A stretch of DNA of 27,219 nt, taken from IMG/VR virus record IMGVR_UViG_3300006920_000191, positions 1 to 27,219 of that record; one strand, written 5' to 3'. The notes beneath the pieces were generated by a model, which was not told the DNA's origin, made no database searches, and was given only the letters and a program-made list of their open reading frames with translations. The position numbers and the translations under genes are program-made. Position 1 is the stretch's first letter; each line of letters opens with the position of its first letter. This DNA is from a virus. Shown here in pieces: positions 6,530-21,202 of this stretch.

Positions 6530-8926
6530 TTAAGATTTATTTACAGGTTTACTTGCTTGCTTTCTTTTTATTTCAATTTCTTTATCTTTACGAGACATGT
6601 TATCATTATGCTTTGTCATATCATTAGATAACGCCTGTTTCTTGATACCAAGTTCTTGTTCAAATTTAATAAAATCATCATCATTCTCAACACCAGCATC
6701 TCCTGATTCTTTTTGAATTCTAGATGTCTCAGCAGACAATTCAGCAATATACCTTTTAGTCTCATCCTCTTTATTGAATTTAGCAAGATCTATAGCTTTT
6801 TCTTGCTCATCAAGTATCTTGGCTTGCTCAAGAGCAGCAGCATGTTGCTTACTTTCTTCTTCAGCTTGTCTAGATTGAGATTCTTTAACCTGAGCCTCAT
6901 CTTTCTCAATTAACCTCTGAATCTCTCTAATTGAAGGAGAATTATATATCTTTATAGCAGTGGAAAAGGATAGCATTTGGTTTTGCAGACCTAACTGAAC
7001 CATTCCGTCAAGTTTTTGCTGCATTTCATTTATATCATCTTCATTACTTACATTCAATCCATACTCTTCTTCAGCAAATTCATCGCCATTGATTTCCGCA
7101 ATCTGCCTAGTCATGTCGTCAGCAATATAAGAAAACTTAAGCTCTCTTCCTTTTAATGCTATTTTAGCTGTCTCTATTAATATCTGGAAACATCTTTTTT
7201 TACAGTAGTCGTGTAATGTGAACAACTCCTCTGTTATATGGTTGGACTGGCTAACAGCTCTTTCTATTCCGCCGACAGTTTCCCTATTCTCAACTTGCCC
7301 TAAACGTTGTCTAGAAACACCTGTTATTTCGTCCATTTGTGCTTTAGCAAACTCCATCATATCGATGTGTGTTTGTATAAAATCACCAACTCTTTGTTCT
7401 AAAACTCTACCAGTAGTGTTACCTACAGCTCCAGCTAGCTTTCCTTTAGCCATTCCTTTTTGCCCCTCCTTGAAACTATCTACTACAGATATTCCGGATT
7501 TACGCGCAAAATATAACCACTTAGTCACTGACCATCCTGTAGGAACTTTAGCTAAATCTAATTCAACTATTGATCCTAGATATTTACTTAAAGCCTCGTT
7601 TACTCTGTACCAAGATATGTCGTAAAGGTATTGGAAAGGCTTTGCTCTATCCACCATTGTTACAGACTCCTGATCTCCTGAATTGTATATTTGACCAACA
7701 ATTCCACAAGAATTAAATGAAGGCTCATCTATTCTATTGTATTGAACCTCTTTTGGTTTAATCTGTAAATAAGTATCTTTACCTATTTTAACACCTTTCC
7801 ACCACTGAGGAACCCATAACCACTGAACAGTCTCACCTATAGCAGCATCTGCTATGTACTCCTCACTTCTAAACTTTACTTGTTTCTTTCCTAGTTGATC
7901 AAAGTAAGTAACCTTAGCAACTTTTTTCATTGATCTCCAGAACATTCTCAATACCCTGATGTTTCCATTAGCATCAGTATAAGTATTCTTTCCATAAGAA
8001 TTTCTATCACTAAAAATACCAGTAGATTCAATATAAGTATCCATTGACTCTCTTTCAAGTAATTTTAATCCAGCAACATCATCAATAGCCTCAGTAACAC
8101 CATCTAAGTTTTTATTACCACCACTAGACATGTTTTCATCATCAAGCTTCTTAACATCTAAGTCAGATAGGTCATTGTAAAAATGATCTTGTATTTTTCC
8201 AGGTGGCCAAAAGTCATCCAATACAATAACATCTGAGTCTTCAATTTTATTAGAAAATCCAGATCTAAGTGTGTGAACTTTTATTGGATTTAATTTTTCA
8301 AAAGAAACTCTTCCGTTTACAATGTCAAACATATATATCTCCTCACCCATAATAAGGGCATCTTTGAATCCTTGCTGAAAATGCAACTTCATATCTAATT
8401 TAGCTATGTAATGCCTCATTAGTAGGTTGGCTCTTTTTTCTCTTAAATCTTGGTAATCAAAATTAATGTAATCACCATATTTCATCAACTCTTGCTCTAG
8501 CTCTTCATCTGAAACATCTGACTGAAGCATCTCATTAAGCTTCGCTTGAACAAGTTTCATTTTATCTTCTTTAATCCTAGATATTGTATCAGGATTTGTT
8601 ATCTGAACAGACCAGTCAAATTTTCTTCTCTTTTCTTCTCCAACTAGAACGTTAACCCTAGGGGTTATTATAGGGTAGTGCTGTATTGCATTAGGTACAA
8701 AGAACTTCTCTAATCCTCCCGGATTAAGAATAAGCTTCATATCCTCAACATCTGCTCTACCATTATATAGATTAAGGTTGATTACTTTATTTTTTACTTT
8801 TCTCCTAACAGCAGAGTTGTTTAAATAACTATTGTTATCCGCCCAGTCCAAGTGCTCTTTTCTCCACACTTTTGTTTTCCTTTTAAAAGGTATTTTCTGT
8901 TTAGGGAAGTTTTTTGTTTCTGACAT
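6530..8926 (-). CDS. Portal protein (crAss-like type)
   Basis: The 798-residue protein follows the large terminase, the usual portal position. Residues 1-450 form the clip/wing part, with PIITPRVNVLVGEEKRRKFDW near 85-105. A conserved block DLAKVPTGWSVTKWLYFARK (about 457-476) is followed by VVDSFKEGQKG, and a helix-rich stem region with MDEITGVSRQRLGQVENRET lies near 531-550, a segment seen across phage portals. The C-terminus from about residue 670 is highly charged (Glu, Lys, Gln) and likely coiled coil, fitting barrel or tail-side structures. The portal forms the dodecameric DNA channel at the capsid vertex and binds TerL during packaging. A segment (457-490) is repeated in the small protein at 20954-21202. 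Confidence 0.88.
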   Translation of the reverse strand: MSETKNFPKQKIPFKRKTKVWRKEHLDWADNNSYLNNSAVRRKVKNKVINLNLYNGRADVEDMKLILNPGGLEKFFVPNAIQHYPIITPRVNVLVGEEKRRKFDWSVQITNPDTISRIKEDKMKLVQAKLNEMLQSDVSDEELEQELMKYGDYINFDYQDLREKRANLLMRHYIAKLDMKLHFQQGFKDALIMGEEIYMFDIVNGRVSFEKLNPIKVHTLRSGFSNKIEDSDVIVLDDFWPPGKIQDHFYNDLSDLDVKKLDDENMSSGGNKNLDGVTEAIDDVAGLKLLERESMDTYIESTGIFSDRNSYGKNTYTDANGNIRVLRMFWRSMKKVAKVTYFDQLGKKQVKFRSEEYIADAAIGETVQWLWVPQWWKGVKIGKDTYLQIKPKEVQYNRIDEPSFNSCGIVGQIYNSGDQESVTMVDRAKPFQYLYDISWYRVNEALSKYLGSIVELDLAKVPTGWSVTKWLYFARKSGISVVDSFKEGQKGMAKGKLAGAVGNTTGRVLEQRVGDFIQTHIDMMEFAKAQMDEITGVSRQRLGQVENRETVGGIERAVSQSNHITEELFTLHDYCKKRCFQILIETAKIALKGRELKFSYIADDMTRQIAEINGDEFAEEEYGLNVSNEDDINEMQQKLDGMVQLGLQNQMLSFSTAIKIYNSPSIREIQRLIEKDEAQVKESQSRQAEEESKQHAAALEQAKILDEQEKAIDLAKFNKEDETKRYIAELSAETSRIQKESGDAGVENDDDFIKFEQELGIKKQALSNDMTKHNDNMSRKDKEIEIKRKQASKPVNKS

Positions 8927-9001: not shown

Positions 9002-11344
9002 CTATATATCAAACATCTGATCATTACTTGATTGTGACATTGCCTTTTGCCAGTTATCATCTAAAAAAGGATCATCATGAAAGAATGTGGTAGCATTCTC
9101 AGTCCTTGATTCTTCGTATTTATCAGTTCTCTTAACTCTATCCTCTCTTAATATCATCACCATGTCCATTGCGGACACCCTATCTGTATTTATATCAGGA
9201 TTCCATGCAATACACTCCTTTATGTATCCGATGCTTCTAATACGTCTTAAATTAGGTATTTTTACAGATTTAGTTTCTCCAGTACTTTCATCATAAGTTT
9301 CTTCTTCATATGGAGACAACTGCCATTGTCTTTGTAGTGTCTTTCCTAATTTAATAACCTCTGCTGTAGTTCTAGTACCTTTTGACCTATTACCAAACAA
9401 ATTAGCTTTAACTATCTCCATGTCTCTTAAAATATCTGGACTATCAGCTAATAGATGTAGTGAATTGTGGTTGGAAAAGTAGGAAAATAAACCCTTCAGA
9501 TTGTTTTCGTAATTGGCTTCTGCGTTATAAAATGAAGTCAATCTTAAACATGTCTCGTAAAATTCATCAGCTAACTGTGGCCTTCCGGTGTATTCAGCTA
9601 CAATTTTATCAGTCCATAAGTCAAATACAATTATTGACGCTAAAGATCCTCCAATAGTATAGTCATTATCAATTGGATCAATTCCACAAATGTATCTATT
9701 GCGAAATACCATTCCGTCTCTATCTTTATTAGGCATTTCAAATATCTCTATAGCTCCACTAGAATCTCTACCTCCTCTTACTTTAAAAGGGAACTCTCTA
9801 ATAGGCTCTATGTCAGAGGTGTTTTTCCATTTAGTAAAACCATCTTCACCATAAGATAATGTCCCCACGTAGTGAGAGTCAGTGAATCTCTGTAGTTCTG
9901 GCATAATATCTTCAAGATAATCTCTTAAATCTGCCACAGGGAATGCTGTACCTTGTGTGCGCATTATAGCTTCTTGAGGAGTTATAGGTTCCTCAGCTTT
10001 AGTTTGCACTATTGTATTTGGATCTGATGATCCTAATTTAACCTTAGTTCTTTTCTTATTTATTTCGATAAGTGCTCCAATAACATCCGAGTTGCCGTTC
10101 TTATCCATCTTACCTCTATAATTCAAGTAAGTTCCAAAGAAGAATGCACACCTACCTTTACCATTTGTATTCTTATCAAACACGTTTGGCATAGAAAGAA
10201 TATTATAACCTGAAGAGTTGTAGAATATTTCTTCCAATCCTTCAAAGGCCCCACCCTCAACACCACCTGTTCCACCTGCCATCATGAATCCAAATGCATA
10301 TTCTGATTCTTCTACTGAAGGTCTAGCAATCTGCCAAGCTGTCAAGAAGTCAGAGAATTTCCCTGCTTCCTCCCATAACACTAATGCTCCCCTTTTTCCC
10401 CTTGCTTTCTGTGGATCATTCTTAAGGGTAACCCCCATCACCTCATTTAGTATTCCGGCCTCAACACCACGTTGATTGTCCTTATAACCCATTCTCCAAT
10501 GCATATCATTCAAGGAATCCTTCAATGATCTAACTCTTGGCCATGGTGTATGTGTTGCGCACCAGTCAATTACATTTACAAACTTATTCAGGATACCGTC
10601 CTTAGTAAGGTATTCCTTTTCATTTGCTATAGCGAATGACTTAACTTTTTCTTTTGCTTTAGTGGTGTCTCCAAGTATGAAGTTCTTGGCCATCATATTA
10701 GATGCTTTTACTGAGTAACCACAACCTCTTCTTTTAAGATTAGCCCCATGCATACCTACAGCTCTACATTGTTCTACATAATGAAAGAACCAATAATCAG
10801 CATCATAAACATAAGCAAATCCTTCAAGTCTGTCAGCCTGCTTGGTTCCTGTGATAATTTCAGCTCTAAGTAATGGTGCGTAATTTAGTTGATAGTAGTA
10901 ATTACCCGGTATCCACTCTCCATCAGCCTGCCTAACGTATCCTTCTCTACATCTTCTAGCTTCTTCAGCCCAGTGTTTATAGTAAGCGGAATTAGGATTT
11001 TTGTTTGGAAATATTTTTGTATAACACCCGTGCTTTTCAAAATGTATAGCAGCAGGCCTGAAGTAATCCATATCCTCAAGTATATGAGGCTCCGTTAAGC
11101 TTACGGCAATTCTACCGTTTGGATCTAATTTTCTTAAATGTAAGTCTGGATCTGAAGAAGCTAATGGTAGTAGTGGGTTTTCCCACCTTTCTAAGTCAGC
11201 AACTTTCTTTCTTTTAGGATCAGCTAAGTTCTGTATAAATCTAATTGAATCTATACTATCTAACAAATCTGCCTTCTCCTCTCTTCTCATGCCTTCTAGC
11301 ATGTCTTCCGTAAGTACCGTCTGTAGGTTGTTAAATCTTCTCAT
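9002..11344 (-). CDS. terL: Terminase large subunit
   Basis: This is the DNA-packaging motor ATPase/nuclease. The ATPase has an atypical Walker A region (LKRRGCGYSVKAS, about 203-215) preceded by YWFFHYVEQCRAVGMHGAN, a Walker B-like ALVLWEEAG (320-328) and a coupling motif MMAGGTGG (354-361). The RNase H-like nuclease shows D556 in ICGIDP, E613 in YENN and D727 in SAMD, the expected acidic triad. At 780 residues it is longer than most TerL proteins because of an N-terminal extension of about 180 residues, as in crAss-like phages. The start overlaps the upstream stop (TAATG). It acts at the portal vertex, cutting and translocating concatemeric DNA. Confidence 0.95.
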   Translation of the reverse strand: MRRFNNLQTVLTEDMLEGMRREEKADLLDSIDSIRFIQNLADPKRKKVADLERWENPLLPLASSDPDLHLRKLDPNGRIAVSLTEPHILEDMDYFRPAAIHFEKHGCYTKIFPNKNPNSAYYKHWAEEARRCREGYVRQADGEWIPGNYYYQLNYAPLLRAEIITGTKQADRLEGFAYVYDADYWFFHYVEQCRAVGMHGANLKRRGCGYSVKASNMMAKNFILGDTTKAKEKVKSFAIANEKEYLTKDGILNKFVNVIDWCATHTPWPRVRSLKDSLNDMHWRMGYKDNQRGVEAGILNEVMGVTLKNDPQKARGKRGALVLWEEAGKFSDFLTAWQIARPSVEESEYAFGFMMAGGTGGVEGGAFEGLEEIFYNSSGYNILSMPNVFDKNTNGKGRCAFFFGTYLNYRGKMDKNGNSDVIGALIEINKKRTKVKLGSSDPNTIVQTKAEEPITPQEAIMRTQGTAFPVADLRDYLEDIMPELQRFTDSHYVGTLSYGEDGFTKWKNTSDIEPIREFPFKVRGGRDSSGAIEIFEMPNKDRDGMVFRNRYICGIDPIDNDYTIGGSLASIIVFDLWTDKIVAEYTGRPQLADEFYETCLRLTSFYNAEANYENNLKGLFSYFSNHNSLHLLADSPDILRDMEIVKANLFGNRSKGTRTTAEVIKLGKTLQRQWQLSPYEEETYDESTGETKSVKIPNLRRIRSIGYIKECIAWNPDINTDRVSAMDMVMILREDRVKRTDKYEESRTENATTFFHDDPFLDDNWQKAMSQSSNDQMFDI

Positions 11345-11898
11345 TACATACCTGTGGTCTCAAACATTGCCATTTCCTTATTTCCTGACTGAGCTTTTAA
11401 AGCTTTCTCTTTGATAACTTCTTTCTCAATTTCATTCAAAGCTTTTACTAGACTCGGTATCTTCTGAACTGAAGCTGTTATTTTAGATATATCATGTATT
11501 GGTTTTCCTGACCTCATGTCTCTTTCTTCCATATCTATATTATCAAGGAATTTAGATATTTTTTGAACAACAAGCCTTGTGCTTTTAAGTAGTTTTGTGC
11601 TTGTGGTTACTGAAAGCTCTTCATAAAAATGCCTAGCTCTAACCAATTCTTTAGTGTTTCCTTTAAAGTTCTTTGGTAGATCTAGGAACTGTTTAACTTG
11701 ATCCATCCTTTCTTCTTCATCAAGTATATACATAAAGTCACTTCTTTCATCAGACATGTAGTATATGAATCCAAGAGTTTGTGTTGCTACAATTTTGTCT
11801 TCACTTTCGTCTGCATCCCATATATTTTTAAATGGGGTAATTAATAACGCTTGAGGACTGAACACCACAATGTTATTTTCAATTTCAAATAAATTCAT
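11344..11898 (-). CDS. Conserved protein before TerL; small-terminase candidate by position
   Basis: The 184-residue protein is mostly helical after residue 50 (DEEERMDQVKQFLDLPKNF, then a Lys/Glu-rich helix near the C-terminus). No DNA-binding motif is recognised. Its stop overlaps the TerL start by one base, and it is the first protein gene downstream of the tRNA array, 75 nt after tRNA-Cys, with no terminator between. The small terminase often sits here in tailed phages, but nothing in the sequence proves that role. The call rests on position alone. Confidence 0.5.
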   Translation of the reverse strand: MNLFEIENNIVVFSPQALLITPFKNIWDADESEDKIVATQTLGFIYYMSDERSDFMYILDEEERMDQVKQFLDLPKNFKGNTKELVRARHFYEELSVTTSTKLLKSTRLVVQKISKFLDNIDMEERDMRSGKPIHDISKITASVQKIPSLVKALNEIEKEVIKEKALKAQSGNKEMAMFETTGM

Positions 11899-11972
11899 CT
11901 CTCCGTTTTTAATAAGTTACACTAATGTTCCCTCTTTTTTAACTTGGAAACTATTCGGTGTTAATCTTCCTG

Positions 11973-12045
11973 AGACAAGAGTGAGATTCGAACTCACAAA
12001 CATTAGTTTTGCAAACTAAGACTTTAACCGTTCAGACATCTTGTC
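11973..12045 (-). tRNA. tRNA-Cys (GCA)
   Basis: Full cloverleaf on the minus strand: acceptor TCTTGTC/GACAAGA, anticodon loop TTGCAAA and T-loop TTCGAAT. The discriminator is U73, the cysteine identity base. The base after it is C, then A; CCA is not encoded. Last tRNA of the array. Confidence 0.93.
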
Positions 12046-12052
12046 ATTGTTG

Positions 12053-12124
12053 TGGCTTGAGTAAGATTTGAACTTACGTCCAACTGCGCTTCAAGCAGTC
12101 ACTCTACCCCTGAGTTACCAAGCC
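12053..12124 (-). tRNA. tRNA-Phe (GAA)
   Basis: Acceptor GGCTTGG pairs with TCAAGCC (one G-U), anticodon loop TTGAAGC, T-loop TTCAAAT, discriminator A followed by CA. Confidence 0.92.
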
Positions 12125-12130
12125 ATATTG

Positions 12131-12203
12131 TACTTCGAGATGGATTCGAACCATCGACTTCTTCCGTGTAAAGGAAGCACTCTTCTCGCTGAGTTACCGA
12201 AGC
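12131..12203 (-). tRNA. tRNA-Val (UAC)
   Basis: Acceptor GCTTCGG pairs with TCGAAGT (G-U at both ends). The anticodon stem CTTCC/GGAAG encloses loop TTTACAC. T-loop TTCGAAT. Discriminator A followed by CA. Confidence 0.92.
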
Positions 12204-12213
12204 ATTTTTATTG

Positions 12214-12286
12214 AGCTTCAAGTAGGGCTCGAACCTACGACCTATTCCTTACAAAGGAATTACTCTGCCAACTGAGTTATTGAAGC
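12214..12286 (-). tRNA. tRNA-Thr (UGU)
   Basis: Perfect acceptor GCTTCAA/TTGAAGC and anticodon stem ATTCC/GGAAT around loop TTTGTAA. The discriminator is U followed by CA. The acceptor is nearly the same as those of tRNA-Val and tRNA-Leu(UAG), hinting at shared ancestry. Confidence 0.92.
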
Positions 12287-12291
12287 ATTAG

Positions 12292-12363
12292 TAGATCTAA
12301 TAGGTCTCGAACCCATATCTCAAGGTCCGTAACCAAGCGTTCTATCCATTGAACTATAGATCT
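12292..12363 (-). tRNA. tRNA-Arg (ACG), imperfect anticodon stem
   Basis: The acceptor AGATCTA/TAGATCT is perfect and the D-arm is normal (GTTC...GAAC). The anticodon stem CTTGG/CCTTG has two U-U mismatches in the middle. Loop TTACGGA gives ACG, which would need A-to-I editing by the host to read all CGN codons except CGG. T-loop TTCGAGA. Discriminator A followed by CT. Confidence 0.82.
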
Positions 12364-12368
12364 ATTTG

Positions 12369-12440
12369 TATTGCGTGGGAGAATCGAACTCCCATTTATA
12401 GGATGAAAACCTATTATCCTAGCCGTTAGATGAACGCAAC
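12369..12440 (-). tRNA. tRNA-Glu (UUC)
   Basis: Acceptor GTTGCGT/ACGCAAT (G-U first pair), anticodon stem ATAGG/CCTAT with loop TTTTCAT, T-stem GGGAG/CTCCC, discriminator A followed by CA. Confidence 0.92.
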
Positions 12441-12446
12441 ATCTAG

Positions 12447-12520
12447 TAGACAATGATAGATTCGAACTATCCACCTCCTAGTTATCAGCCAGGTGCTCTA
12501 ACCGAATGAGCTAATTGTCT
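12447..12520 (-). tRNA. tRNA-Ile (GAU)
   Basis: Perfect acceptor AGACAAT/ATTGTCT, anticodon loop CTGATAA, T-stem GATAG/CTATC, T-loop TTCGAAT, discriminator A followed by CT. Confidence 0.93.
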
Positions 12521-12525
12521 ATTTG

Positions 12526-12598
12526 CAGTCCACAAGGGAGTTGAACCCTCAATCTTCCCCGTGACAGGGGGACGTGTTACCTACAACACCTCTGGACT
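12526..12598 (-). tRNA. tRNA-Asp (GUC)
   Basis: Anticodon stem TCCCC/GGGGA with loop CTGTCAC. The discriminator is G73, the aspartate identity base, followed by CA. Acceptor AGTCCAG/GTGGACT has a G-G mismatch at the seventh pair. Confidence 0.9.
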
Positions 12599-12604
12599 AT
12601 TTTG

Positions 12605-12694
12605 TGGGAATGGAAGGGTTCGAACCTTCAGTGGGATCTTTCGATACCTACAGAGTTACAGTCTGCTCGCTTCAGCCAGTTTGCATACACGCCC
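12605..12694 (-). tRNA. tRNA-Tyr (GUA), long variable arm
   Basis: A class II tRNA: anticodon loop CTGTAAC, a variable arm with a GAAA tetraloop (TCGAAAGATCCC core) and T-arm GAAGG/CCTTC. Acceptor GGGCGTG/CATTCCC has one mismatch. Discriminator A followed by CA. The same 12-base variable-arm core recurs in the CAU tRNA at 13807-13890. Confidence 0.9.
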
Positions 12695-12705
12695 AATTAT
12701 TATTG

Positions 12706-12787
12706 CAGAAAGAAGAGGCCCTGATCCCCAATGTATTACCATCCAATCCTTTAGCAAAGGATGCTCACCCAAGTGAGTTTACTTTCT
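12706..12787 (-). tRNA. tRNA-Ser (GCU) with non-canonical T-loop
   Basis: The anticodon arm ATCCT-TTGCTAA-AGGAT is perfect. A class II variable arm (ATG...CAT) is present. Discriminator G followed by CA, as for other serine tRNAs. The T-loop reads ATCAGGG instead of TTCRANN and the T-stem has one mismatch, so tertiary folding may be weakened. Confidence 0.7.
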
Positions 12788-12794
12788 ATTTTTG

Positions 12795-12874
12795 TACAGA
12801 TCTAGAGATTCGAACTCCAATTTACAACTCCAATTACGCTTACCAATTTAGAAAAATGGCACGGTTACATCTGC
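12795..12874 (-). tRNA. Degenerate tRNA-like gene (anticodon unclear, UCU possible)
   Basis: The T-arm (TGGAG-TTCGAAT-CTCTA), the acceptor ends (GCAGATG/GATCTGT, one mismatch) and discriminator A followed by CA are tRNA-like. The interior does not fold normally. The best anticodon arm, CCATT-TTTCTAA-ATTGG (UCU, Arg), leaves almost no D-arm and a 23-nt variable region in which AATTGGAGTT is duplicated (once overlapping the T-stem). It is probably a decayed or rearranged gene. Confidence 0.45.
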
Positions 12875-12880
12875 ATTTTG

Positions 12881-12953
12881 TGGATCTGATGAGACTCGAA
12901 CTCATATACTTCTCCTTGCAAAGGAGGTGCTGCGCCAGTTCAGCTACAAACCC
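12881..12953 (-). tRNA. tRNA-Ala (UGC)
   Basis: Acceptor GGGTTTG/CAGATCC carries the G3-U70 wobble, the defining alanine identity element. Anticodon loop TTTGCAA. T-stem ATGAG/CTCAT. Discriminator A followed by CA. The outer anticodon-stem pair is mismatched. Confidence 0.92.
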
Positions 12954-12957
12954 ATTG

Positions 12958-13030
12958 CTCTCTTGAAAAGACTCGAACTTTCAACCTAGTGATTAACAGT
13001 CACTTGCTCTGCCAATTGAGCTACAAGAGA
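12958..13030 (-). tRNA. tRNA-Asn (GUU)
   Basis: Perfect acceptor TCTCTTG/CAAGAGA and anticodon stem AGTGA/TCACT around loop CTGTTAA. Discriminator G73 as expected for Asn, followed by CA. Confidence 0.93.
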
Positions 13031-13038
13031 ATTTATTG

Positions 13039-13111
13039 TGTCCTTTGAGAGATTTGAACTCCCGACCAATTCGTTATGAGCGAACCACTCTACCAACTGA
13101 GTTAAAAGGAC
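13039..13111 (-). tRNA. tRNA-Met (CAU), elongator-like
   Basis: Perfect acceptor GTCCTTT/AAAGGAC with a G1-C72 pair, so it is not a typical bacterial initiator. Anticodon loop CTCATAA, normal D-arm (ACTC...GAGT) and 5-nt variable loop. Discriminator A followed by CA. A lysidine-modified tRNA-Ile2 cannot be excluded from sequence alone. Confidence 0.88.
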
Positions 13112-13116
13112 TATTG

Positions 13117-13199
13117 CGGAAGAAGAGAGACTCGAACTCCCAAAGCTTTAACACCCGACTGCTTTCAAAACAGCTTGACAACCAATTGTCCATTCTTCC
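13117..13199 (-). tRNA. tRNA-Ser (UGA)
   Basis: Class II tRNA with a long variable arm, perfect acceptor GGAAGAA/TTCTTCC, anticodon loop TTTGAAA and discriminator G followed by CA. Confidence 0.92.
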
Positions 13200-13203
13200 A
13201 TTG

Positions 13204-13277
13204 TACTTCAGGCAGGACTCGAACCTGCAAATTCTAGATCCTAAATCTAGCGCCTATGCCAATTCGGCTACTGAAGC
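13204..13277 (-). tRNA. tRNA-Leu (UAG) lacking the long variable arm
   Basis: The anticodon arm CTAGA-TTTAGGA-TCTAG is perfect and the D-arm (GCC...GGC, GAATTGGCA loop) looks leucine-like. The variable region is only 5 nt (AATTT), although bacterial tRNA-Leu is class II with a long arm. Acceptor GCTTCAG/CTGAAGT, discriminator A followed by CA. UAG here reads CUA/CUG; it is not an amber suppressor (that would be CUA). Confidence 0.88.
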
Positions 13278-13288
13278 AGTTATTTTTG

Positions 13289-13360
13289 TTCCCCCGGTAG
13301 GTACCGATCCTACGATCCTTCCGTTAAAAGCGGAATGCTTTGCCATTAAGCTACGAGGGA
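13289..13360 (-). tRNA. tRNA-Lys (UUU) with unusual T-loop
   Basis: Anticodon arm TTCCG-CTTTTAA-CGGAA is perfect. Acceptor TCCCTCG pairs with CGGGGGA. The T-stem GTAGG/CCTAC is intact but the loop is ATCGGTA rather than TTCGANN. Discriminator A followed by CA. Confidence 0.87.
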
Positions 13361-13437
13361 ATATCCCTCAACTTAATGAAGGTGTATTAATCTCGTTTAT
13401 GTTTACTTAATACTAACATTCTTTTAATTACTACTTG

Positions 13438-13511
13438 GGTGTTATGTGAGACTCGAACTCACAACAGCGGTACCACAAACCACCATATTAACCAGTTATA
13501 CTAATAACACC
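13438..13511 (-). tRNA. tRNA-His (GUG)
   Basis: Perfect acceptor GTGTTAT/ATAACAC, anticodon arm GTGGT-TTGTGGT-ACCGC, discriminator C73 and an encoded G at -1. G-1 and C73 are the histidine identity pair. CA follows the discriminator. Confidence 0.92.
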
Positions 13512-13518
13512 ATATTTG

Positions 13519-13604
13519 TACCCATGACTGGAATCGAACCAGTACGCTCATTACTGAACCACAGAGTTTAAGTCTGCGATGTCTACCAATTCCATCACAA
13601 AGGC
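13519..13604 (-). tRNA. tRNA-Leu (UAA)
   Basis: Class II tRNA with anticodon arm GCAGA-CTTAAAC-TCTGT, a long variable arm, a D-loop with AATTGGTAGA and discriminator A followed by CA. Acceptor GCCTTTG/CATGGGT has one mismatch. Confidence 0.91.
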
Positions 13605-13609
13605 AAATG

Positions 13610-13677
13610 CGCATCTACAAAGAGTCGAACTCTGTTCTAAGGGTTTGGAATCCTCTTGCCTCCACAGGCTTAAATGC
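13610..13677 (-). tRNA. tRNA-Trp (CCA) with minimal D-arm
   Basis: Only about 68 nt long. The acceptor GCATTTA/TAGATGC pairs fully. The D-arm is the compact hairpin GCCT-GTGG-AGGC with a 4-nt loop, and a single base replaces the usual U8-A9. Anticodon loop TTCCAAA with an A-C mismatch closing the stem. Discriminator G73 as expected for Trp, followed by CA. Confidence 0.8.
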
Positions 13678-13708
13678 ATTAGTGTTTACAGACACTCTCT
13701 GTTTTGGT

Positions 13709-13778
13709 TGCAGTAATAAGGACTTACACCTTATGACATCCATCTTCGACAACGGCGACCCATCCTGGTCCATACTGC
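13709..13778 (-). pseudogene. tRNA-like remnant
   Basis: It has an acceptor-like GCAGTAT/TTACTGC, a D-arm GACC-AGGATG-GGTC and a T-arm-like TAAGG-TGTAAGT-CCTTA. The T-loop lacks TTC and the anticodon stem (CCGTT/GATGG) encloses only six bases. Unlike every intact tRNA in the array, the discriminator is not followed by C. No amino acid can be assigned; it reads best as a decayed tRNA gene. Confidence 0.45.
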
Positions 13779-13806
13779 TGGAAAATTTATATCCTCCATT
13801 AGATAG

Positions 13807-13890
13807 TAGCGGGAGTGGGACTCGAACCCACGGGATCTTTCGACATAAGGTTATGAGCCTCACAAGCTACCAACTACTGACTACCCCGCT
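13807..13890 (-). tRNA. CAU tRNA (Met/fMet/Ile2) with a class II variable arm
   Basis: Acceptor AGCGGGG/TCCCGCT begins with a weak A1-U72 pair. The anticodon arm TGAGG-CTCATAA-CCTTA gives CAU. The variable region is 14 nt and contains TCGAAAGATCCC, identical to the variable arm of tRNA-Tyr at 12605-12694. A weak 1-72 pair would suit an initiator, but the anticodon stem lacks the three G-C pairs of initiators. Discriminator A followed by CT. Aminoacylation is uncertain: Met, fMet or lysidine-Ile. Confidence 0.8.
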
Positions 13891-13898
13891 ATAATTTG

Positions 13899-13972
13899 AG
13901 CAGATAATGGGTATCGAACCCATTCTATTCTAGCTTGGAAGGCTAGCGCACCACCACTTATGCGTTATCTGC
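13899..13972 (-). tRNA. tRNA-Gly (UCC)
   Basis: Perfect acceptor GCAGATA/TATCTGC and anticodon stem CTAGC/GCTAG around CTTCCAA. Discriminator U73, the usual glycine base, followed by CA. Confidence 0.93.
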
Positions 13973-13983
13973 TTATACTGTTG

Positions 13984-14056
13984 TTGGAATGTAAGGAATC
14001 GAACCTCAATTCTCTGCGCCAAAAGCAGATGTAATAACACATTATACCACATTCCA
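13984..14056 (-). tRNA. tRNA-Gln (UUG)
   Basis: Perfect acceptor TGGAATG/CATTCCA, anticodon arm TCTGC-TTTTGGC-GCAGA, T-loop TTCGATT, discriminator A followed by CA. Confidence 0.92.
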
Positions 14057-14127
14057 TTATTTTATAGTGATAAAGAGTTCATGATCTCTTTTTTAAACAG
14101 TCTCGCTGATAACTATAACACTTATTG

Positions 14128-14203
14128 TCTAGATGGTAGGAATCGAACCTACGATGCTCTTGTTCCCAAAACAAGTGAGTTCAGCCTCTGCTCTTGCATC
14201 TAG
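14128..14203 (-). tRNA. tRNA-Pro (UGG), first of the array
   Basis: Perfect acceptor CTAGATG/CATCTAG, anticodon arm CTTGT-TTTGGGA-ACAAG, T-arm GTAGG-TTCGATT-CCTAC, discriminator A followed by CA. It starts 17 nt after the -7 box of the array promoter. Confidence 0.92.
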
Positions 14204-14219: not shown

Positions 14220-14251
14220 CAAACATACAAAAAAATAGCTCTACTGTCAAG
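14220..14251 (-). promoter_or_regulatory. Promoter of the tRNA array, overlapping a terminator
   Basis: On the minus strand CTTG (14251-14248), 20 nt and TATGTTTG (14227-14220) match the Bacteroidota sigma-factor consensus TTG-N19/20-TAnnTTTG. The -33 box sits in the loop and first stem base of the upstream terminator hairpin. Transcription would begin just before tRNA-Pro. Confidence 0.7.
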
Positions 14252-14260
14252 TAGAGCTAT
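14229..14260 (-). terminator. Strong terminator of the chaperonin operon
   Basis: An 11-bp perfect stem (ATAGCTCTACT/AGTAGAGCTAT, loop TGAC on the minus strand) is followed by a run of seven T. It ends the operon whose last gene stops at 14289. Confidence 0.9.
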
Positions 14261-14288
14261 CATTAACTTTGTATGATACTTTGTTCTA

Positions 14289-16697: not shown

Positions 16698-18447
<1,750 letters not shown>

Positions 18448-20748: not shown

Positions 20749-20994
20749 TTACGCAAGCAATACTTTATTTATTATTTCTTCAAAATGCTTTAGTGATTTT
20801 ACGAAGTTATCGAAATGAATTTTATCAGCTTTTTTCACCCTGAATAATGTGCTGCATATTAACTCTACTGTTATAAATTGACCAAATCCCAGGCTCTTCC
20901 TATGCGAGTCTGTACTTTTGTTATATGTAAAATTATTGTCTATTAAAACGTCCCTATATGTCTTCTTTGAATTCACCTTTCTTACTTGTGTCAT
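20749..20994 (-). CDS. Hypothetical protein
   Basis: 81 residues, basic, with TYRDVLIDNNFTYNKSTDSH and a C-terminal helix (HFDNFVKSLKHFEEIINKV). Overlaps the portal-like gene by 41 nt. Single cysteine, no motif recognised. Confidence 0.5.
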   Translation of the reverse strand: MTQVRKVNSKKTYRDVLIDNNFTYNKSTDSHRKSLGFGQFITVELICSTLFRVKKADKIHFDNFVKSLKHFEEIINKVLLA

Positions 20995-21202
20995 GTATTT
21001 CGTATTTTAGCTTTCTCCTTTTGTATAGCATTGATGGCATCTGACCCCCTTTAGTGCTGTCCACGATCATAACTCCATGAGTCTTGGCAATATTAAACCA
21101 CTGATCTAAGTTCCATCCTTCAGGAATAGCTGCTAGGTCCACCACTATAGTGTCATCTAACATTTCGTTCTTTACATTTGTATATTTATTTAATTTTTCC
21201 AT
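20954..21202 (-). CDS. Small protein homologous to a portal segment
   Basis: 82 residues. Residues about 22-54 (VDLAAIPEGWNLDQWFNIAK, then a Gly and VDSTKGGQ) match portal residues 457-489 (DLAKVPTGWSVTKWLYFARK, then VVDSFKEGQ). About 15 of 33-35 positions are identical, including both Trp, the Pro-x-Gly-Trp and VDS-x-K-x-GQ. The flanks (about 1-20 and 55-82) are unrelated to the portal and the tail is charged. It may be a decoy or assembly partner that mimics this portal part, or a leftover of a duplication that was retained. It overlaps genes on both sides. Confidence 0.6.
   Translation of the reverse strand: MEKLNKYTNVKNEMLDDTIVVDLAAIPEGWNLDQWFNIAKTHGVMIVDSTKGGQMPSMLYKRRKLKYEIHDTSKKGEFKEDI

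Follow-up and report, generated by a model that had tools for sequence, protein, structure and literature searches.

Introduction

Clusters of tRNA genes have been described in several groups of phages. Crassvirales isolates carry 0 to 24 tRNAs (PMC10569736), and in the gut members cr85_1, cr126_1 and cr111_1 arrays of 16-24 tRNAs lie just upstream of a GroEL-terminase-portal block. A 2019 survey of viral genomes found eight viral clusters with all 20 isotypes, in phages unrelated to the one considered here (PMC6409571). We have analysed a tRNA array on the minus strand of the IMG/VR virus record IMGVR_UViG_3300006920_000191, a 27-kb record (27,219 nucleotides (nt); hereafter the window, to which positions refer unless another record is named) that is the sole contig of its assembly and represents part of the genome of a marine crAss-like phage, a relative of the gut crAssphages. 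Given the arrays of the gut Crassvirales and the surveyed 20-isotype clusters, it is a further case of a type already known in crAss-like phages. In the reading that we favour, with a probability of about 0.6, the array sits in a slot at the 5' leader of the packaging operon, after a terminator hairpin that carries a promoter-like element and before the first gene, and tops up the tRNA pool.

The closest known case is the gut phage cr111_1 (MT774387, uncultured; Crassvirales, Steigviridae, Lahndsivirus rarus), which has all 20 isotypes (24 tRNAs by ARAGORN) in one array upstream of terminase and portal, with GroEL in the same block. Its array, however, lies upstream of GroEL, whereas that of the window directly precedes the terminase operon, and its tRNA set differs in having Arg-UCU as Arg tRNA, Ile-GAU together with Ile-UAU, and two tRNAs each for Lys and Glu; Arg-UCU and Ile-UAU are also present in cr85_1. 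The Cellulophaga phages phi4:1 (Lightbulbvirus) and Calle (Callevirus) are, like the window phage, marine, and these flavophages carry 18-24 tRNAs. Several tRNAs of phi4:1 are 77-85% identical to those of the window, phi4:1 also has a Leu-UAG with a short variable loop, and Calle has a similarly atypical Trp tRNA; the likeness concerns the tRNAs, and both phages belong to other families, with a different gene order and with both Arg-ACG and Arg-UCU. Xanthomonas phage XacN1 also has tRNAs for all 20 amino acids (PMC5852040) but is an unrelated phage, and it carries genes for tRNA processing, a CCA enzyme among them, of which none was seen in our fragment. Finally, the isolated marine Cellulophaga phage phi14:2 (Crassvirales, Akihdevirus balticus) shares the order GroEL, small genes, terminase, portal, but its terminase and GroEL are only 33-35% identical to those of the window (terminase 33%), and a scan of two stretches, 72.4 of 100.4 kb with the terminase region among them, gave a tmRNA and no tRNA gene.

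Results

The array names all 20 amino acids

ARAGORN finds 21 tRNA genes in 2.23 kb (11972-14203), all on the minus strand, and no tRNA in 200 dinucleotide-preserving shuffles of the window, which rules out an array arising by chance or artefact. A whole-window scan with Rfam RF00005 gives 20 matches at or above the cut-off of 29 bits, and a local scan adds Ser-UGA (37.7 bits) and Trp-CCA (26.9 bits, below the cut-off). The array falls within the definition of a viral tRNA gene cluster used in the survey (at least 15 tRNAs, at least 2 per kb; PMC6409571) and, when Trp is counted on account of its conservation with compensatory changes, within that of a cluster with all 20 isotypes. In 5' to 3' order on the minus strand, its members are:

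14127-14203, minus: tRNA-Pro(UGG) (ARAGORN; Rfam, 29.9 bits)
14060-14118, minus: tRNA-like remnant without recognisable anticodon arm (no ARAGORN or Rfam match)
13983-14056, minus: tRNA-Gln(UUG) (ARAGORN, Rfam)
13898-13972, minus: tRNA-Gly(UCC) (ARAGORN, Rfam)
13806-13890, minus: initiator-like tRNA-Met(CAU), extra GTCGAAAGAT hairpin in the variable region, weak D-arm (ARAGORN; Rfam, 38.2 bits)
13709-13778, minus: cloverleaf-like element, 6-nt loop at the anticodon position, non-standard T-loop TGTAAGT; not a recognised tRNA (z -1.28)
13610-13677, minus: tRNA-Trp(CCA), short D-loop, below the Rfam cut-off, conserved
13518-13604, minus: tRNA-Leu(UAA), long variable arm (ARAGORN, Rfam)
13437-13510, minus: tRNA-His(GUG) (ARAGORN, Rfam)
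13288-13360, minus: tRNA-Lys(UUU) (ARAGORN, Rfam)
13203-13277, minus: tRNA-Leu(UAG), short (class I) variable loop (ARAGORN, Rfam)
13116-13199, minus: tRNA-Ser(UGA), about 80-86% identical to same-slot copies in relatives (ARAGORN, local Rfam)
13038-13111, minus: tRNA(CAU), elongator Met or Ile2; C4-G69 and C32 favour Ile2 (ARAGORN, Rfam)
12957-13030, minus: tRNA-Asn(GUU) (ARAGORN, Rfam)
12880-12953, minus: tRNA-Ala(UGC) (ARAGORN, Rfam)
12795-12874, minus: tRNA remnant, acceptor and T-arm intact, middle degenerate (z -0.14)
12706-12787, minus: degenerate tRNA-Ser(GCU), good anticodon and variable arms, non-standard T-loop
12604-12694, minus: tRNA-Tyr(GUA), long variable arm (ARAGORN, Rfam)
12525-12598, minus: tRNA-Asp(GUC) (ARAGORN, Rfam)
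12446-12520, minus: tRNA-Ile(GAU) (ARAGORN, Rfam)
12368-12440, minus: tRNA-Glu(UUC) (ARAGORN, Rfam)
12291-12363, minus: tRNA-Arg(ACG), the sole Arg tRNA of the array (ARAGORN, Rfam)
12213-12286, minus: tRNA-Thr(UGU) (ARAGORN, Rfam)
12130-12203, minus: tRNA-Val(UAC) (ARAGORN, Rfam)
12052-12124, minus: tRNA-Phe(GAA) (ARAGORN, Rfam)
11972-12045, minus: tRNA-Cys(GCA) (ARAGORN, Rfam)

An earlier, sequence-only reading of this DNA had described 23 well-formed tRNA genes for all 20 amino acids, plus two degenerate elements, and had proposed ARAGORN as a check. All 20 amino acids are indeed named, 19 isotypes by ARAGORN and the twentieth by the conserved Trp gene, and the identity bases it cited (His G-1/C73; Asp, Asn, Ser and Trp G73; Cys and Gly U73) are visible in the sequence. 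Its count was too high: of the 23, 21 are standard genes, Trp is atypical yet conserved, and Ser-GCU, which like Trp is not among the ARAGORN genes, is degenerate. The tRNA-like remnants exist, but there are three of them (12795-12874, 13709-13778 and 14060-14118). None of the 21 ARAGORN genes encodes its CCA end, so that a host CCA enzyme is needed; the encoded N73-C-A ends are no special feature, similar partial ends being found in Bacteroidota genomes and other Bacteroidota phages. Three plus-strand open reading frames (ORFs; 12574-12966, 13036-13410 and 13607-13894) run antisense to the tRNAs, are prone to mis-annotation as proteins, and were not counted as genes.

The Trp isotype depends on a sub-threshold gene. 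Its copy in Tenacibaculum phage Gundel_1 is 91% identical and itself scores 25.7 bits with the Rfam tRNA model, and when the two sequences are read side by side, pairs 1-72 (G-C/A-U) and 28-42 (A-U/C-G) have changed on both sides, showing that the structure has been maintained. A tRNA-Trp is also annotated in the matching place of Cellulophaga phage Calle_2. Trp-CCA is therefore a credible candidate for a genuine tRNA gene despite its score. A class II tRNA structure can be drawn for Ser-GCU, with a perfect anticodon arm, a long variable arm and the T-loop ATCAGGG, but the gene is reported neither by ARAGORN nor by Rfam (E up to 10). When viral contigs were scanned for patterns of the Trp and Ser tRNAs, only Gundel_1 and two known relatives matched.

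Several other interpretations of individual members were discarded. The element at 12795-12874 is not a hidden Arg-UCU: although a TTTCTAA loop resembling an anticodon loop can be drawn in it, the remainder does not fold as a tRNA. That at 13709-13778 has no homologue in a phage search, and neither this search nor alignment supports homology to the leader RNAs of relatives. Nor is the class I Leu-UAG unique, for short-variable-loop Leu tRNAs also occur in phi4:1, Gundel_1, cr111_1 and one Bacteroidota genome. The Tyr gene holds a stretch near-identical to the hairpin insert of the initiator-like tRNA, which suggests, from the two sequences, an exchange between tRNA genes.

The array lies in a conserved slot, probably an operon leader

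The array is framed by the following features:

16698-18293, minus: GroEL, upstream of the array; other Crassvirales likewise carry GroEL upstream of terminase
14222-14261, minus: composite element, a 12-bp terminator hairpin with U-run, with TTGACA (14250-14245) at its apex, a 17-nt spacer and TATGTT (14227-14222)
11344-11898, minus: 184-amino-acid (aa) gene, function not assigned, the first protein gene downstream of the array, in the place of the terminase small subunit
9002-11344, minus: terminase large subunit, crAss-like
6530-8926, minus: portal protein

The promoter within the composite element is predicted from its consensus match. A terminase search of viral contigs yielded 65 relatives, with terminases mostly 75-87% identical to that of the window, and in 49 of them both the element and the start of the 184-aa gene preceding the terminase could be placed. 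In the relatives, TTGACA again sits at the apex, with TATATT (TATGTT in the window) 17 nt downstream. Across 20 distinct sequences of the element, 95.5% of pair cells are standard and 6 of 11 pairs have changed on both sides, a covariation score reached neither by partner sliding nor by shuffling. In most relatives scanned, the copy before the terminase operon is the only element of its kind. What differs is the content of the slot: from element to start codon there are 8-755 nt in the 49 relatives versus 2323 nt in the window, and 0-4 tRNAs versus about 23. Atypical tRNAs of the relatives can escape ARAGORN, and a covariance search run on 20 of these phages added a single gene above cut-off; two long relative records (90.6 and 98.4 kb) gave one and two tRNA matches in total. 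The only terminator candidate detected on the way from the array to the 184-aa gene was a tRNA T-arm. One element and one slot, so differently filled, argue that the tRNAs are probably leader cargo of the packaging operon.

The range of 0 to about 23 tRNAs among phages with such similar terminases could also mark a recombination hotspot that gains and loses tRNA genes under little selection, the large number here being transient; the three remnants, the degenerate Ser gene and the patchy similarity to flavophages of other families all point that way. We nevertheless consider this explanation unlikely: ARAGORN accepts 21 of the 23 genes, there is nearly one per isotype, and the Trp gene shows compensatory changes relative to Gundel_1. 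Frequent gain and loss as such fits both the decayed members and the range.

The tRNA-less leaders of relatives hold other structured RNAs. A small RNA, in up to two tandem copies, occurs in terminase-operon leaders (relatives L037, 9241-9370; L039, 9250-9370; L056, 7965-8020; and L033). It consists of CAAC, an outer stem, an inner stem and the loop GTTGTAAAA, which could pair with CAAC as a pseudoknot; its stems vary in sequence yet stay paired, and in these four relatives it has no Rfam match above cut-off. A second element, found in L003, L004, L007, L019, L026 and L051 between tRNAs or in their stead, runs GGGC(A)TCGCTACC ... GGGACA, followed by a 10-12 bp hairpin, and is not in Rfam at gathering score. 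It is tempting to speculate, though we hold the idea only tentatively, that the slot is a cargo site for tRNAs or other structured RNAs that form the 5' part of the packaging mRNA, and that their excision would set the 5' end of this mRNA or the timing of terminase and portal.

The window belongs to a crAss-like phage

The terminase large subunit is 41-44% identical to those of Crassvirales phages over 94-99% of its length, and this, together with the GroEL-terminase-portal synteny, places the phage in the Crassvirales; portal and terminase both match PHROG models. A large phage-encoded RNA polymerase and crAss-like capsid genes were not identified within the 27-kb fragment. An 82-aa ORF at 20954-21202 is similar to a stretch inside the portal protein (38% over 53 aa). 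As a host marker GroEL was uninformative, its matches being mixed metagenome-assembled genomes (MAGs) that point to no host; one contig binned as a Mollicutes MAG (L069, CAJYBF010000016.1) encodes a GroEL 67% identical to that of the window phage and is probably a misbinned phage relative. A tight tRNA cluster with some low-scoring members in a Bacteroidota genome (G022 contig 3, 448578-450042) is possibly a prophage or mobile array.

The array probably supplements the host tRNAs

Codons were counted in 26 ORFs of the window (5578 codons); the remaining phage genome, outside the window, could hold further tRNAs. Arg is encoded by AGA or AGG in 205 of 219 cases (94%; 37 per 1000), and the only Arg tRNA, ACG, reads at most 13 of the 219. 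AUA accounts for 245 of 417 Ile codons (44 per 1000), and AUG for up to 25.5 per 1000 (142 ATG, internal and start together). The CAU tRNA at 13806 is initiator-like, its closest matches being initiators of phages and bacteria. Its counterpart at 13038 carries C4-G69 and C32, a combination shared with the presumed Ile2 of Bacteroidota genomes, where most presumed elongator Met have G4; we assigned these classes ourselves from the E. coli Ile2 and Met sequences. Overall identity does not discriminate between the two, and the bases named favour Ile2. Whichever it is, with only two CAU tRNAs either AUA or internal AUG lacks a reader.

The sequence-only reading had suggested that a complete set could make the phage independent of host tRNA pools. 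Beyond the fact that all 20 isotypes are named, little speaks for this strong form, and we regard it as very improbable: within the window AGA/AGG and either AUA or internal AUG are unserved, CCA is not encoded, and no aminoacyl synthetase was seen among the proteins scanned. The comparison of the array with codon usage that it proposed, made here on 26 window ORFs, leaves most phage Arg codons without a reader in the array. For this reason, as judged from the window, the array supplements the host tRNAs rather than replacing the set, and host tRNAs remain necessary.

Codon usage also bears on a weaker proposal, that the tRNAs supply codons which the phage uses more than its host does. Most anticodons have U34 or G34, suiting an AT-rich phage, many codon families are served, and a tendency to codon compensation has been reported in XacN1 (PMC5852040). 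On the other hand, the array has Arg-ACG where AGA/AGG dominate, one tRNA per isotype is not a targeted set, and in relatives with 0-4 tRNAs the terminase genes likewise rely mostly on AGA/AGG. We doubt that codon compensation is the main explanation.

Discussion

We propose that a single transcript would start at the composite element and pass through the tRNAs into the 184-aa gene, terminase and portal, that host RNase P, 3'-end enzymes and CCA-adding enzyme would release the tRNAs, and that these may top up a pool that falls or is strained during the synthesis of structural proteins. That phage tRNAs can replace host tRNAs lost during infection is documented (PMC11555353, PMC10264068), in the case of retron-Eco7 and PrrC by PMC11555353, and anticodon-loop changes have been proposed for mycobacteriophages (PMC10264068). 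Because the array has one tRNA per isotype and keeps a rare-codon Arg tRNA, general replacement of tRNAs lost to host nucleases appears more likely than codon matching.

Altered anticodon loops might let the tRNAs evade specific anticodon nucleases. Compared with two proxy Bacteroidota genomes, neither of them the true host, 7 of 20 loops equal neither proxy's loop, mostly differing at 1-2 positions (e.g. Phe G37). The other 13 match a loop in one of the proxies, among them Lys, Tyr, Asn, Asp and His, the targets of known nucleases, and we think evasion by altered loops distinctly unlikely. As these 13 are equal and the others differ slightly, any protection would come from the amount or timing of the tRNAs rather than from resistant loops.

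Some observations weigh against the topping-up of the tRNA pool from a leader slot. The 13 matching loops give no positive sign of nuclease evasion, although the proxies may differ from the host; the promoter is predicted from a consensus match; and part of the array, to judge from the three decayed elements and the degenerate Ser gene, may be under weak selection.

The array extends large tRNA clusters to a marine branch of the crAss-like phages. Its amino-acid tally overstates its completeness, and it is the codon check that reveals what the host must still supply. Together with its relatives, the window offers a natural series in which a single conserved slot, following a single conserved element, holds anything between 0 and about 23 tRNAs, and this series makes the reasons for which phages gain tRNAs testable by comparison.

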